Part shown: one piece after another, positions 44,725 through 48,209 of the stretch
Numbering within the stretch: position 1 is the stretch's first letter
Layout: every line of letters starts with the position of its first letter
Assembly: GCF_018283455.1 (NCBI RefSeq)
Contig: NZ_JAAMTH010000001.1
Span: forward strand, 1,345,501 to 1,409,500
Direction: 5' to 3'
DNA: 64,000 nt
From: Planococcus sp. MSAK28401
GTDB taxonomy: Bacteria; Bacillota; Bacilli; Bacillales_A; Planococcaceae
The notes under the pieces: model-generated
The model's database searches: none
Told to the model about the DNA's origin: nothing
What the model saw: only the letters and a program-made list of their open reading frames with translations
Program-made: the position numbers and the translations under genes

Positions 44725-44769
44725 AGCGGTTTGGGATGGGGGTTCCAAATTGAGTGTGGAGGATGCAAA

Positions 44770-45477
44770 ATGCCGAAGAAAATTTTGATCATTGAAGACG
44801 AACATTCAATCGCAACGCTATTATCGTATAATCTGGTGCAGGCTGGATATGAAACAATCATCGCGAATGACGGTAAACAGGGCTATGACCTTGCACTGAG
44901 CGAAAAGCCGGATTTGATCGTGCTGGATTTGATGCTGCCATCAATGGATGGCGTGGAAGTGTGTAAATCACTGCGCCAGCAGAAAGTAAACATCCCGATC
45001 ATCATGTTGACGGCAAAAGGCGATGAATTTGATAAAGTGCTTGGCTTAGAACTGGGCGCCGATGATTATATGACCAAGCCGTTCAGCCCGCGTGAAGTAG
45101 TTGCCCGCATCAAAGCGGTGTTGCGGAGGGCTGAGACAAGCCCTGTCATCCAGCAGGACGGGTCAGCCCCATATGTCTTCGGTAAACTACAAATTTTCCC
45201 AGACAGATTTGAAGTGTTTTTGGATGACAAGCAATTGGAATTTACACCGAAAGAATTCGAATTGCTTGTCTACTTGGCAGAAAATAAAAATAGGGTATTG
45301 ACCCGCGATCAATTATTGAGTGCTGTGTGGAAATACGATTTTGCGGGCGATACCCGGATCGTCGATGTCCATGTCAGCCATTTGCGTGAAAAGATTGAAG
45401 CGAATACGCGCAAGCCGACTTATATCAAAACGATCCGTGGCTTGGGCTATAAATTCGAGGAGCCGAAAAGTTCATGA
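44770..45477 (+). CDS. phoP: Two-component response regulator PhoP
   Basis: A 235-residue OmpR-type regulator of the phosphate-starvation response. The receiver domain has the acidic pair (ED at 9-10) and phospho-acceptor D53 in IVLDLMLPSMDG, with the conserved lysine in MTKPFSP (near residue 104). The C-terminal winged helix (about 135-232) recognises DNA. The stop overlaps the phoR start by four bases (ATGA). GGAGGA lies before the ATG. Place next to mdh and upstream of polA supports PhoP rather than another OmpR protein. Confidence 0.95.
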   Translation: MPKKILIIEDEHSIATLLSYNLVQAGYETIIANDGKQGYDLALSEKPDLIVLDLMLPSMDGVEVCKSLRQQKVNIPIIMLTAKGDEFDKVLGLELGADDYMTKPFSPREVVARIKAVLRRAETSPVIQQDGSAPYVFGKLQIFPDRFEVFLDDKQLEFTPKEFELLVYLAENKNRVLTRDQLLSAVWKYDFAGDTRIVDVHVSHLREKIEANTRKPTYIKTIRGLGYKFEEPKSS

Positions 45478-46874
45478 CTTTCCGGCGCCGCCTGCTGATC
45501 TCTTTGCTGCTGTGGATCGGTACGTTGCTCGTCGGACTCTATTTGATCGTGCTTCAGTTTCTTCCTTTATATGAAGTGGCGGCAAATAAATCCGCTGTGT
45601 GGTTGGCGTTGGGGCTTATTTTCCTGATAGGGCTCGGGGCATCGGCCGTCATCGGTAATCGTATTATCCGTTTGCAAGTAGAGCCGGTGGAAAATGCCAC
45701 GGCGACTGCAGTGGAGCTCGTGAAGGGGAACTACCGTGCACGCGCTTATGAATCCGATGCCCAGGGCAGCTTGGAGTTGAACAAGACGATCAACGTGCTT
45801 GCCCGCAATCTGCAGGAAGTCGCAACTGTCCGCCTTATGGAGCAAGAGCGGTTGAAAACCTTGATCGAGAATATGGGCAGCGCACTGGTCATGATTGACC
45901 GGCAAGGGACGATTTCCCTGGTCAACCGTGCCTTTCTCGAAGAAACCGGCTTGAGCAGTGGTGCGGTTCTTGGCAGTTTGTACCGTGAAATCGATATCGC
46001 GCCCGAGCTGAAATCCTTCATTGAAACAGTATTCATGACTGAGACCCGTTCGCGCGATCAAATCGAGTTTGCTGAAGGGTTGAAAATGAAGAACTTGGAT
46101 GTCTACGGCGCACCGGTCATCGGCGAACACGAACGCTGGCTGGGTGTAGTCATTGTTTTCCACGATATTACCGAGCTGAAAAAACTAGAACAAGTGCGCA
46201 AGGATTTTGTGGCGAACGTTTCCCATGAATTGCGCACGCCCGTCACCTCCATCAAAGGTTTCTCGGAAACCTTGCTGGATGGCGCTTATCAAGATACAGA
46301 TACCTTATTGTCCTTTTTGGAAATTATCCAGACAGAAAGCAACCGCTTGGAAATGCTCATCAATGATTTGCTTAACCTGTCGAATATGGAGCGTTCCGCA
46401 TTCCACATCGAGTTGGAGCCGACGGACATGAAAGCGGTCATTGAACGGGCCGTCGAAACGGTGCACCCGAAACTGGCAGAAAAGAATATTAGCCTTGAAT
46501 TGGATCTGGCACCGGTTATCGTGAACGGCGACGGGAACCGGCTCATCCAAGTCATCGTCAATTTATTGATCAATGCTTCCACTTATTCACAGGAAAACAC
46601 CAAAGTGTCGCTGAAGCTTTATGCAGAAGGCGATCAGGCCATCGTGAAAGTGGAAGATCAAGGAATCGGCATCGAAGCATCCGAAATCGGCCGCTTGTTT
46701 GAGCGCTTTTACCGAGTTGACCGGGCCCGCAGCCGGAATTCGGGCGGCACTGGCCTCGGGCTTTCGATCGTCAAACATATCATTGAAGCGCATCATGGCA
46801 ATGTCGAAGTGGAAAGCGAAGTCGGCGTCGGGACGACCTTTACCGTTCATTTGCCACTTGCGGAAGAAATTTAG
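45474..46874 (+). CDS. phoR: Sensor histidine kinase PhoR (short form)
   Basis: A 466-residue membrane kinase. Two transmembrane helices (about residues 8-29 and 40-61) are separated by only about ten residues, so the extracytoplasmic sensory domain of B. subtilis PhoR (579 residues) is missing. A HAMP-like linker (to about 115), a PAS domain (about 125-235), the phospho-accepting H251 in VSHELRTPVTS and the ATPase domain with NLLINAS, DQGIGI and GTGLGLSIVKHI follow. It is co-translated with phoP and presumably senses a membrane or intracellular cue. Confidence 0.94.
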   Translation: MTFRRRLLISLLLWIGTLLVGLYLIVLQFLPLYEVAANKSAVWLALGLIFLIGLGASAVIGNRIIRLQVEPVENATATAVELVKGNYRARAYESDAQGSLELNKTINVLARNLQEVATVRLMEQERLKTLIENMGSALVMIDRQGTISLVNRAFLEETGLSSGAVLGSLYREIDIAPELKSFIETVFMTETRSRDQIEFAEGLKMKNLDVYGAPVIGEHERWLGVVIVFHDITELKKLEQVRKDFVANVSHELRTPVTSIKGFSETLLDGAYQDTDTLLSFLEIIQTESNRLEMLINDLLNLSNMERSAFHIELEPTDMKAVIERAVETVHPKLAEKNISLELDLAPVIVNGDGNRLIQVIVNLLINASTYSQENTKVSLKLYAEGDQAIVKVEDQGIGIEASEIGRLFERFYRVDRARSRNSGGTGLGLSIVKHIIEAHHGNVEVESEVGVGTTFTVHLPLAEEI

Positions 46875-46883
46875 GAGGAACAT

Positions 46884-48104
46884 ATGGAAACCAAACACCC
46901 ATTTTTGCCGATCATTGTCGGCACCGATATGAATGCTTACAATATGGCAATTTCATTTCATGAAGCTTACGGCATCAAGCCGATTTTGATCGGCAAGGAG
47001 CCATTATCCTTCACGGAGATGAGCTCGATCACTGAAACAATCGAATTTGATAAAAAATTATCGGAGCCTGAACATTTCGCTGATATTTTAATCGCCATGG
47101 CAGACAAATACAGAGCTCCCGGCAAAACTTTGCTGCTAGTCGGCACGAACGATTTATACGTACGCTTGATCATCGAAAATGCCAAAGTGCTGCGTGAGCA
47201 TTATGTGTTCAATTATCCGAACGAAGCATTGATGAACCAGCTGCAGATGAAAGCGAATTTCTATGAATTGTGCAAAGAGCACGGCATCGATACACCGACG
47301 ACTTATTTTTACGACTGCAGCCAGGATGTGCCGTTCGATGATAGCGACATGATGTATCCGGTCGTTGTCAAACCAAGCAATGGCATCGAATACAGCCGCA
47401 ATAAGTTCGAAGGCCAGGAAAAAGTCTATAAAGTGGACAGCCCGAAAGAATTATTCGAAGTCGTCCAGAAAATCAAGGCAAGCGGCTACCGCGATGAATT
47501 AATCATTCAGGATTTCATTCCGGGCGATGATACATATATGTGGGATTCCGTCATTTACGCCAATTCGAAAGGCCAGACGCAATTGGTGACATTCGCACAA
47601 GTCGTACTGCAAGAGCACACCGTGACGGCGATCGGCAATTATACGGCGCTCATCACGCGTTTCGACAAGGAAATGATGCAAAAGCTCCAGCATTTCCTGG
47701 AAGCTGTCGACTATACCGGTTTCGCCAATTTCGATTTAAAATACGATTCGCGCGACAAGAAATTCAAGGTCTTCGAAGTGAATATCCGCCAAGGACGCTC
47801 CAGCTATTACGTGACGGCGCTTGGCCATAATATGGCACAGTACTTAGTCGATGATTTAATCTACAAAATGGAAAAGCCGATCACTTATTTAAATGAAGAT
47901 TTCCTGTTCACTGTCGTTCCAAAAGTGGTATTGCGCAATTTCGTCCAAAACCAGGCGGTCCAAAAAGACATCAAGCGCTTGATCAAGGAAAAGAAATACG
48001 GCAATCCGCTATTTTATAAAAAAGACACCCATATGAAACGCAAACTGTATCTTTTTGCGCGCCAAGTGAATTATTATAAAAAATACAAAAACAATCAATG
48101 GTAA
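46884..48104 (+). CDS. ATP-grasp D-aspartate/D-glutamate ligase-like enzyme
   Basis: A 406-residue cytoplasmic ATP-grasp protein. N-terminal PIIVGTDMNAYNMAISFHEAYG, the central IIQDFIPGDDTYMW (near residue 207) and YTGFANFDLKYDSRD plus FEVNIRQGRSSYYV (near 275-310) closely follow the pattern I know from Enterococcus faecium D-aspartate ligase (Aslfm), which attaches D-Asp to the epsilon-amino group of lysine in the peptidoglycan precursor. E and N in EVNIRQ are the Mg ligands expected. Planococcus-type walls carry an L-Lys-D-Glu (or D-Asp) bridge, so this is a good candidate for that ligase. The substrate is inference. It follows phoR by nine bases and ends with a terminator. Confidence 0.82.
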   Translation: METKHPFLPIIVGTDMNAYNMAISFHEAYGIKPILIGKEPLSFTEMSSITETIEFDKKLSEPEHFADILIAMADKYRAPGKTLLLVGTNDLYVRLIIENAKVLREHYVFNYPNEALMNQLQMKANFYELCKEHGIDTPTTYFYDCSQDVPFDDSDMMYPVVVKPSNGIEYSRNKFEGQEKVYKVDSPKELFEVVQKIKASGYRDELIIQDFIPGDDTYMWDSVIYANSKGQTQLVTFAQVVLQEHTVTAIGNYTALITRFDKEMMQKLQHFLEAVDYTGFANFDLKYDSRDKKFKVFEVNIRQGRSSYYVTALGHNMAQYLVDDLIYKMEKPITYLNEDFLFTVVPKVVLRNFVQNQAVQKDIKRLIKEKKYGNPLFYKKDTHMKRKLYLFARQVNYYKKYKNNQW

Positions 48105-48178: not shown

Positions 48179-48209
48179 GAAAAAGAGCCCCTCCCCGGGC
48201 TCTTTTTCT
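48179..48209 (+). terminator. Terminator after the ATP-grasp gene
   Basis: AAAAAGAGCCC / GGGCTCTTTTT with a CTCCCC-like loop. Confidence 0.9.

Follow-up and report, generated by a model that had tools for sequence, protein, structure and literature searches.

In a 64,000-nucleotide stretch of the Planococcus sp. MSAK28401 genome (the window, throughout this text), the gene directly behind phoR probably encodes an Aslfm/AslA-family enzyme of altered specificity, namely a ligase for the D-Glu bridge, as judged from sequence comparisons. The sequence-only reading of this DNA had proposed a bridge ligase for D-Glu or D-Asp; a D-amino-acid bridge ligase related to Aslfm proved well supported, and the choice was narrowed to D-Glu. 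We favored D-Glu because the clade of the window protein (clade I) has no linked aspartate racemase, carries other residues at conserved positions, and occurs in bacteria whose walls are reported to contain D-Glu, as far as the accessible parts of those reports go. The protein lacks two marks of the D-Asp subgroup, namely linkage to the racemase gene racD and a residue signature derived here. We computed the fold, the retained catalytic residues, the two clades, the racemase linkage on the clade II side, the change in signature and the position behind phoR.

The ligase gene and its neighbors

The features of the locus are collected in Table 1. We take the gene order to be icd, mdh, a hot-dog-domain gene, phoP, phoR, the ligase gene, hflK, hflC, polA and mutM. 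PnpS/PhoR was the sole neighbor name that passed a curated model, and the hot-dog gene had only NCBIfam matches below cut-off. The placement of the ligase nine bases after phoR was confirmed, with a gap of 9 nt between the phoR stop and the ligase ATG and an upstream gene that scored above the PnpS cut-off. All three motifs that had been quoted as Aslfm-type were present in the translation: IIQDFIPGDDTYMW at residues 207-220, YTGFANFDLKYD at residues 277-288 and FEVNIRQGRSS at residues 297-307. The hairpin 3' of the gene is a pattern match only, because the number of hairpin-type sites in the region (5) is close to that in shuffled sequences (4.8 +/- 2.5). The open reading frame does not result from chance, because homologues were found at E <= 1e-5 in each of the 151 family genomes sampled, which cover 19 genera, and an AlphaFold (AF2) model of the protein, made with 55 sequences, had a mean pLDDT of 91.0 and a pTM of 0.88.

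Table 1. Features of the ligase locus, in positions of the window.
Feature	Position	Strand	Basis
Candidate D-Glu bridge ligase, clade I of the Aslfm/AslA-like family	46884..48104	+	ORF, ATG start, 406 aa
AGGAGG ribosome-binding site in the phoR-ligase gap	46875..46880	+	sequence
phoR/PnpS-type phosphate-regulon sensor kinase, directly upstream of the ligase	45474..46874	+	NF046044 PnpS 445 bits, cut-off 400
phoP-type response regulator	44731..45477	+	YycF/MtrA/PhoB-type models, all below cut-off among 25 matches listed; named phoP by position
Terminator-like hairpin with T-run, 3' of the ligase gene	48179..48208	+	12-pair stem
WDSV, codons 220-223, belonging to the clade I signature; RVLN in clade II	47541..47552	+	clade-contrasting columns
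EVNIR, codons 298-302; E298, N300 and R302 invariant in both clades	47775..47789	+	invariant columns

Fold and family membership

The Pfam model ATP-grasp_3 (PF02655) matched the ligase at 25.0 bits, above its gathering score of 23.2, placing the protein in the ATP-grasp superfamily. The top structural match in VIA-align was 2pn1 (Z 26.7, rmsd 2.5 A, 286 aligned); PylC (4ffr) was among the next rows (Z 22.9, rmsd 3.5 A, 293 aligned), many other ATP-grasp enzymes followed at Z 21-23, and the Foldseek matches of the model were ATP-grasp enzymes as well. Among PDB sequences, 3vot was the only match below E 0.01 (E 0.0022), and a profile search (A2) of PDB sequences gave none at E <= 0.01. No NCBIfam model fitted the ligase; the best match, PRK12767 'carbamoyl phosphate synthase-like protein', reached 45.9 bits against a cut-off of 271.

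A shared fold alone shows no function, but the nearest analogue of the proposed reaction is the chemistry of PylC (L-lysine-Nepsilon-D-ornithine ligase). Judging from the entry titles, PylC joins a D-amino acid to the epsilon-amine of lysine. PylC thus resembles the ligase in a strong fold match and in that chemistry, but its acceptor is free lysine, its donor is D-Orn, it acts in another pathway, and the identity in structural alignments is 12-13%. The L-amino acid ligases YwfE/BacD and BL00235, which are ATP-grasp enzymes among the top Foldseek matches, make free L-dipeptides and are only 12-17% identical to the ligase.

We compared the ligase with Aslfm (Enterococcus faecium) and AslA (Lactococcus lactis) through stand-ins, namely the proteins of L. 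crispatus, L. curvatus and L. fermentum and racD-linked loci, rather than through the Aslfm and AslA sequences. The three lactobacillar proteins were 32.2-35.0% identical to the ligase over 96-98% of the query, and they share D284, N300 and R302 with it; at position 298, two of them have D in place of E. Lactobacillar ligases encoded next to racD or asnB showed full-length homology to the window ligase. This stand-in comparison with D-Asp-bridge organisms places the protein in the broad Aslfm/AslA family of D-amino-acid bridge ligases. It is like Aslfm/AslA in its ATP-grasp family, its similar length, the acceptor amine proposed for it, and catalytic residues shared with the lactobacillar and racD-linked homologues. 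It is unlike them in that the clade I ligase sits behind phoR with no linked aspartate racemase, and in having I23, WDxV at 220-223 and Q243 where they would have R23, an RVLN-type stretch and E243. Homologues 33-37% identical to the ligase were also found in records labeled phage (LT985590.1, MT835538.1 and three Listeria phage records), which may be host DNA or moved genes.

Two clades of the ligase

By identity to the window ligase, the listed genes were divided into clade I (>= 56%; 78 genes, 56-100%), clade II (39-44%; 71 genes) and an 'other' set (33-38%; 11 genes). These are counts of listed genes in the 149 genomes with listed places (G040 and G140 of the 151 were left out), and weaker second copies in some genomes lie outside them. 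Both clades were present in 3 of these 149 genomes. Genera with both clades were g1 (12 clade I, 5 clade II), g3 (12 clade I, 1 clade II, 2 other, 1 unlisted), g4, g7, g9 (4 and 4), g10, g11 (1 and 8) and g19 (1 and 2). We also worked with named loci, the best 80 of 580 confirmed GTDB contig stretches, which comprise 33 clade I and 47 clade II loci; genome searches of the named records covered 31 (ligase) and 32 (TIGR00035) of these best 80 of 580. The two clades were seen together, the clade II gene having racD directly downstream, in G137 (the same as G523, L. yapensis, L114), G006, G025 and G543. Genomes with both clades are candidates for mixed or switchable bridges.

In a class-wide sample of 398 genomes, 61 had a match at E <= 1e-10, 39 of them in the own family and 22 outside it. 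The best matches outside were G494, a single copy of clade I at 68% identity, and several family f9 sequences at 42-45%, L051 and L052 among them. Clade I was also found outside the family in records named Oceanobacillus luteolus and Paenibacillus alkaliterrae. L060 and L143, two loci with clade I ligase genes outside the family and one of them recorded as Oceanobacillus luteolus, have a similar gene order, in which the upstream neighbors of the ligase are presumably gyrB/gyrA-like genes.

An IQ-TREE analysis of 73 sequences gave clade I a support of 89, and clade I with L051/L052 a support of 100. Clade II was not a group alone; it received support of 100 with L062, and again 100 together with L053-L057, L047, L050, L062, L063 and L066, while L058, L059, L064 and L065 fell in neither tree group. 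L053-L057 probably belong to Lactobacillales. Clade II thus groups with racemase-linked ligases of other Bacilli, and it resembles the ligases of the named lactobacilli, which have D-Asp bridges.

Signature residues

The signature was read from an alignment of 66 clade I and 65 clade II sequences as the columns fixed differently at 90% or more in each; the repeats L001, L012 and L072 were dropped, and L061 and 16 distant sequences stood outside both groups. The columns, clade I versus clade II, included 23 (I/R), 88-89 (TN/CG), 110 (N/P), 220-223 (WDSV/RVLN), 239-240 (QV/NP), 243 (Q/E) and 342 (F/W); the signature taken from them is I23, W220, D221, V223 and Q243 versus R23, R220, V221, N223 and E243. 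In the ligases of L. crispatus, L. curvatus and L. fermentum, these positions are R23, R/H220, V/T221, N223 and E243. R23 and E243 were common to all 23 aligned sequences outside clade I and L051/L052, in which position 220 is R, H, Y, G or A and position 223 is N or T. The racD-linked L058 has G220, T223 and Y342, and this, together with the variation just given, makes 220, 223 and 342 less strict as marks than positions 23 and 243. L051 and L052 agree with clade I at four positions (220, 221, 223 and 243), and residue 23 is A in both. D284, E298, N300 and R302 are invariant in both clades, position 298 being D in L. curvatus and L. fermentum; E298, N300 and R302 presumably have a metal/phosphate role, as in ATP-grasp enzymes.

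The claim that the protein follows the Aslfm pattern therefore stood in part. The catalytic residues are kept and the alignment with homologues, used as stand-ins for Aslfm, upheld the shared family, but the residues common to racD-linked ligases are absent: where the D-Asp-subgroup signature derived here has R23, an RVLN-type 220-223 and E243, the window ligase has I23, WDSV and Q243. Residues 220-223 and 239-243, at which the protein departs from the D-Asp-type ligases, lie in or near the motifs quoted as Aslfm-type.

The aspartate racemase partner

According to the accessible part of a review (PMC4155827), the lactococcal bridge receives its D-Asp from RacD, whose gene belongs to the aslA operon, and we therefore searched the same 151 family genomes with TIGR00035. 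This aspartate racemase model matched over cut-off in 92 of the 151. Linkage was scored on the same strand up to 1500 nt downstream, with distances taken between match ends and not gene ends; so measured, a TIGR00035 match lay 24-43 nt beyond the ligase match in 52 of 71 clade II genes and in 0 of 78 clade I genes. An aspartate racemase in the same operon, the arrangement stated for L. lactis in what is accessible of PMC4155827, was thus found with none of the 78 clade I genes. The linkage is not an absolute mark of the D-Asp subgroup, as a racemase gene was also absent from the stretches examined around the ligases of L. crispatus and L. fermentum. Read as ORFs in family loci, the clade II ligase and racD were within 10 nt of each other. 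Of the remaining 19 clade II genes, 15 are from genus g14, which is Lysinibacillus as judged by contigs identical to those of named loci, and their genomes carry racD at another place; about 4-5 kb separate the last 4, all from g4, from racD. Genus g14 also has four listed second paralogues with racD 39 nt downstream of that paralogue. Among the 11 'other' genes, racD was 39 nt downstream in 4 and about 1.16 kb downstream in 2. Every genome with a listed clade II gene had at least one TIGR00035 match over cut-off.

No TIGR00035 match over cut-off was found in 57 of the 73 clade-I-only genomes. In the remaining 16, all 18 over-cut-off matches were only 24-31% identical to the RacD of L040; fourteen of them were 62-75% identical to a remote type also present in clade II genomes, and four were only 34-39% identical to that type. 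By comparison, the RacD proteins near family clade II ligases were 53-70% identical to L040 RacD (the reference and its own species excluded), and those of L053-L056 and L058 were 32-38% identical. Because all 18 matches are of other types, the 73 clade-I-only genomes have no RacD-type gene over cut-off, a typing that covers the over-cut-off TIGR00035 matches of these sampled genomes and, among the named clade I genomes, those that recur in this sample. The named loci (best 80 of 580) gave the same picture: racD was present, in stretches of up to 6 kb on either side, in 0 of 33 clade I loci and directly downstream in 33 of 47 clade II loci, the 14 without it all being named Lysinibacillus. Racemase presence tracks the type of ligase, not the genus, and ligase and racemase switch together within several genera.

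Some other genes of these loci were noted. At L062:8971-10206 (G063, g14), a racD-adjacent second paralogue has no catalytic motif: LFEINLRNGRSS of the intact copy, which lies elsewhere in the genome, is replaced by LLSIELHNELSN. E298, N300 and R302 are lost, so the paralogue looks decayed or repurposed. Matches to RacX/YgeA-like racemases, in the own genome (C1:3206436-3207077) and many others, often contain one in-frame stop. Asparagine-synthase-type amidotransferase genes were found beside bridge ligases at L104:3011-4855, L055:10242-12095 and L195:1018-2967. In the record named Paenibacillus alkaliterrae, such a gene lies close to a ligase of clade I, and by analogy with AsnH, which acts on D-Asp, its product could possibly amidate a D-Glu bridge.

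Wall chemotypes

In the accessible parts of the reports, the wall is given as L-Orn-D-Glu for Tetzosporium hominis VT-49, L-Lys-D-Glu for Planococcus, L-Lys-D-Asp, at genus level, for Paenisporosarcina and L-Lys-Gly-D-Glu for Sporosarcina (PMC5786688), L-Lys-D-Glu for Solibacillus (PMC5578834), Lys-Asp for Lysinibacillus (PMC6971209, PMC10434897) and L-Lys-D-Glu for Planococcus antioxidans Y74 (PMC7294307). Walls are also reported as L-Lys-D-Glu for Anaerococcus prevotii and L-Lys-L-Ala-D-Asp for Sporosarcina highlanderae.

Mapped against bridge type, the clades agreed with several of these walls. VT-49 (L138), the same strain as in the wall report, has clade I and no TIGR00035 match at E <= 1e-40; Planococcus citreus DSM 20549 has clade I at 99% identity, Lysinibacillus boronitolerans has clade II, and Paenisporosarcina quisquiliarum has clade II with racD. 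Other cases ran against the rule. Y74 (L105/G521), reported in the accessible text as L-Lys-D-Glu, gave a single match at E <= 1e-20, a clade II gene adjacent to racD, and it is the strongest evidence against a clade-to-substrate rule because it is at strain level. The Y74 report might reflect a routine wall assay, in which Glu and Lys of the stem always appear. The one match of Paenisporosarcina indica at E <= 1e-20 is of clade I, although its genus is given, in the accessible text, as L-Lys-D-Asp, and the record named Lysinibacillus odysseyi MF12 has clade I. Clade II was found in the own genus also in P. halotolerans, P. okeanokoites, MER TA 32b and CAU13, four records that would be misfits to the genus statement of L-Lys-D-Glu if it holds for all species. 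For the clade I records Oceanobacillus luteolus and Paenibacillus alkaliterrae, we would expect meso-DAP walls. The assignment of clade II to D-Asp, for its part, is suggested by racD linkage, similarity to lactobacilli and genus-level reports.

D-amino-acid supply, acceptor and a possible phosphate link

The own genome encodes a glutamate racemase, which scored 259.5 bits against a cut-off of 146.65. It also has two MurE homologues over the TIGR01085 cut-off, L166 (C1:2242355-2243728) and L167 (C1:405257-406660). The motif position reads DDPR in one and DHPG in the other, and we take it to tell diaminopimelate from other diamino acids. The DHPG protein scored 386.9 bits with the NCBIfam diaminopimelate ligase model (cut-off 373) and 241.3 bits with the lysine-ligase model (cut-off 536). 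These scores speak against taking it for a lysine enzyme, although the two homologues may add different diamino acids. FemAB (PF02388) gave five partial matches in four open frames at C1:2462214-2473131, which exceed the low Pfam threshold of 24 bits singly or in combination (29.1 for the best single match, 44.9 in combination); a Fem-type bridge enzyme is therefore conceivable, if improbable. The own genome is thus consistent with lysine in the stem and a D-amino acid in the bridge, but it proves neither. The MurE and FemAB facts bear on the acceptor more than on the donor and leave the odds for D-Glu unchanged.

Among the named loci (best 80 of 580), the ligase was at most 20 nt after phoR in 22 of 33 clade I loci, comprising 17 records of Planococcus, Planomicrobium and P. 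indica, 2 of Psychrobacillus, 2 of Chryseomicrobium and Tetzosporium, and directly after phoR in 0 of 47 clade II loci. The 11 clade I loci without this placement were 7 of Sporosarcina, Caryophanon latum, O. luteolus, P. alkaliterrae and L. odysseyi MF12. In the own-genus clade II genomes Y74, P. halotolerans, P. okeanokoites and MER TA 32b, the icd-to-mutM order is kept and phoR is followed directly by hflK, with no ligase between. In a fifth such genome, CPCC 101079, phoR is followed by a clade I gene (78%), and the clade II gene lies elsewhere. Because of the 9-nt gap and the gene order in these 22 of 33 clade I loci (best 80 of 580), co-transcription with phoPR is plausible; phosphate control is a suggestion from gene order only.

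Discussion

We propose that clade I does for D-Glu what the D-aspartate ligase Aslfm/AslA does for D-Asp. The enzyme, an ATP-grasp carboxylate-amine ligase, would activate D-glutamate with ATP and join it to the epsilon-amino group of L-lysine in the peptidoglycan precursor, giving a D-Glu interpeptide bridge; L-ornithine would be the acceptor in some relatives. We presume that the linkage is gamma. D-Glu would be supplied by the ordinary glutamate racemase, and no dedicated racemase gene would therefore travel with clade I. The substrate, the acceptor, the gamma linkage and the co-expression with phoPR are what we infer here.

If the protein were instead a plain D-aspartate ligase of the Aslfm kind that obtains D-Asp in some other way, its family, its catalytic residues and its 31-36% identity to the racD-linked L053-L056 would all be accounted for, and the Y74 wall, in the accessible part of its report, uncouples clade II from D-Asp. 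However, the 73 clade-I-only genomes have no RacD-type racemase over cut-off, the signature residues have changed together, and clade I genera are reported, in the accessible texts, with D-Glu, which makes this reading improbable. About equally improbable is a relaxed ligase that takes both D-Glu and D-Asp, so that the D-amino-acid pool sets the bridge; the glutamate racemase of the own genome would suit it, as would the two walls that, as far as their reports are accessible, depart from a strict clade-to-substrate rule. Against it, different residues are fixed in each clade (columns at 90-100%), and the clades share only 3 of the 149 genomes with listed places.

The least probable reading, and a very improbable one, has the protein as another ATP-grasp enzyme, carbamoyl phosphate synthase-like or an amino acid ligase, with no role in the bridge, which would then be made by, for example, a FemAB-type enzyme. 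The name of the best NCBIfam match, 2pn1 as the top structural match and the FemAB matches in four open frames, which clear 24 bits singly or in combination, speak for it, but the NCBIfam score is far under its cut-off, the FemAB matches are partial, and the ligase has full-length homology to those beside racD or asnB in lactobacilli. Moreover, as stated in the accessible part of PMC2922099, the residues attached by Fem enzymes are glycine and L-amino acids rather than D-amino acids. We rejected all three readings on these grounds, and we retain the D-Glu bridge ligase.

A D-Glu-specific ligase had been said to be undescribed, and we found no description of one in the literature searched, mostly outside subscription journals; an ATP-grasp role, though, was already expected, since the accessible part of a 2010 paper makes the general statement that cross-links of D-Asp and of D-Glu depend on ATP-grasp ligases (PMC2922099). 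A wider proposal, that clade I is the long-missing D-Glu ligase, that residues 23, 220-223 and 239-243 together with racD linkage form a code that reveals the bridge amino acid from a genome, and that in Planococcus and related genera a phoPR transcript couples the bridge to phosphate, is tentative, and as a whole we consider it rather doubtful.

Taxonomists have long relied on walls of the L-Lys-D-Glu and L-Orn-D-Glu types. If the proposal is true, this taxonomic chemotype would become a genomic trait, and the choice between D-Asp and D-Glu would be a tractable specificity switch. The repeated swaps of ligase and racemase within genera would then be natural experiments on wall chemistry, and the linkage to phoR would tie the synthesis of the cross-bridge to phosphate supply.
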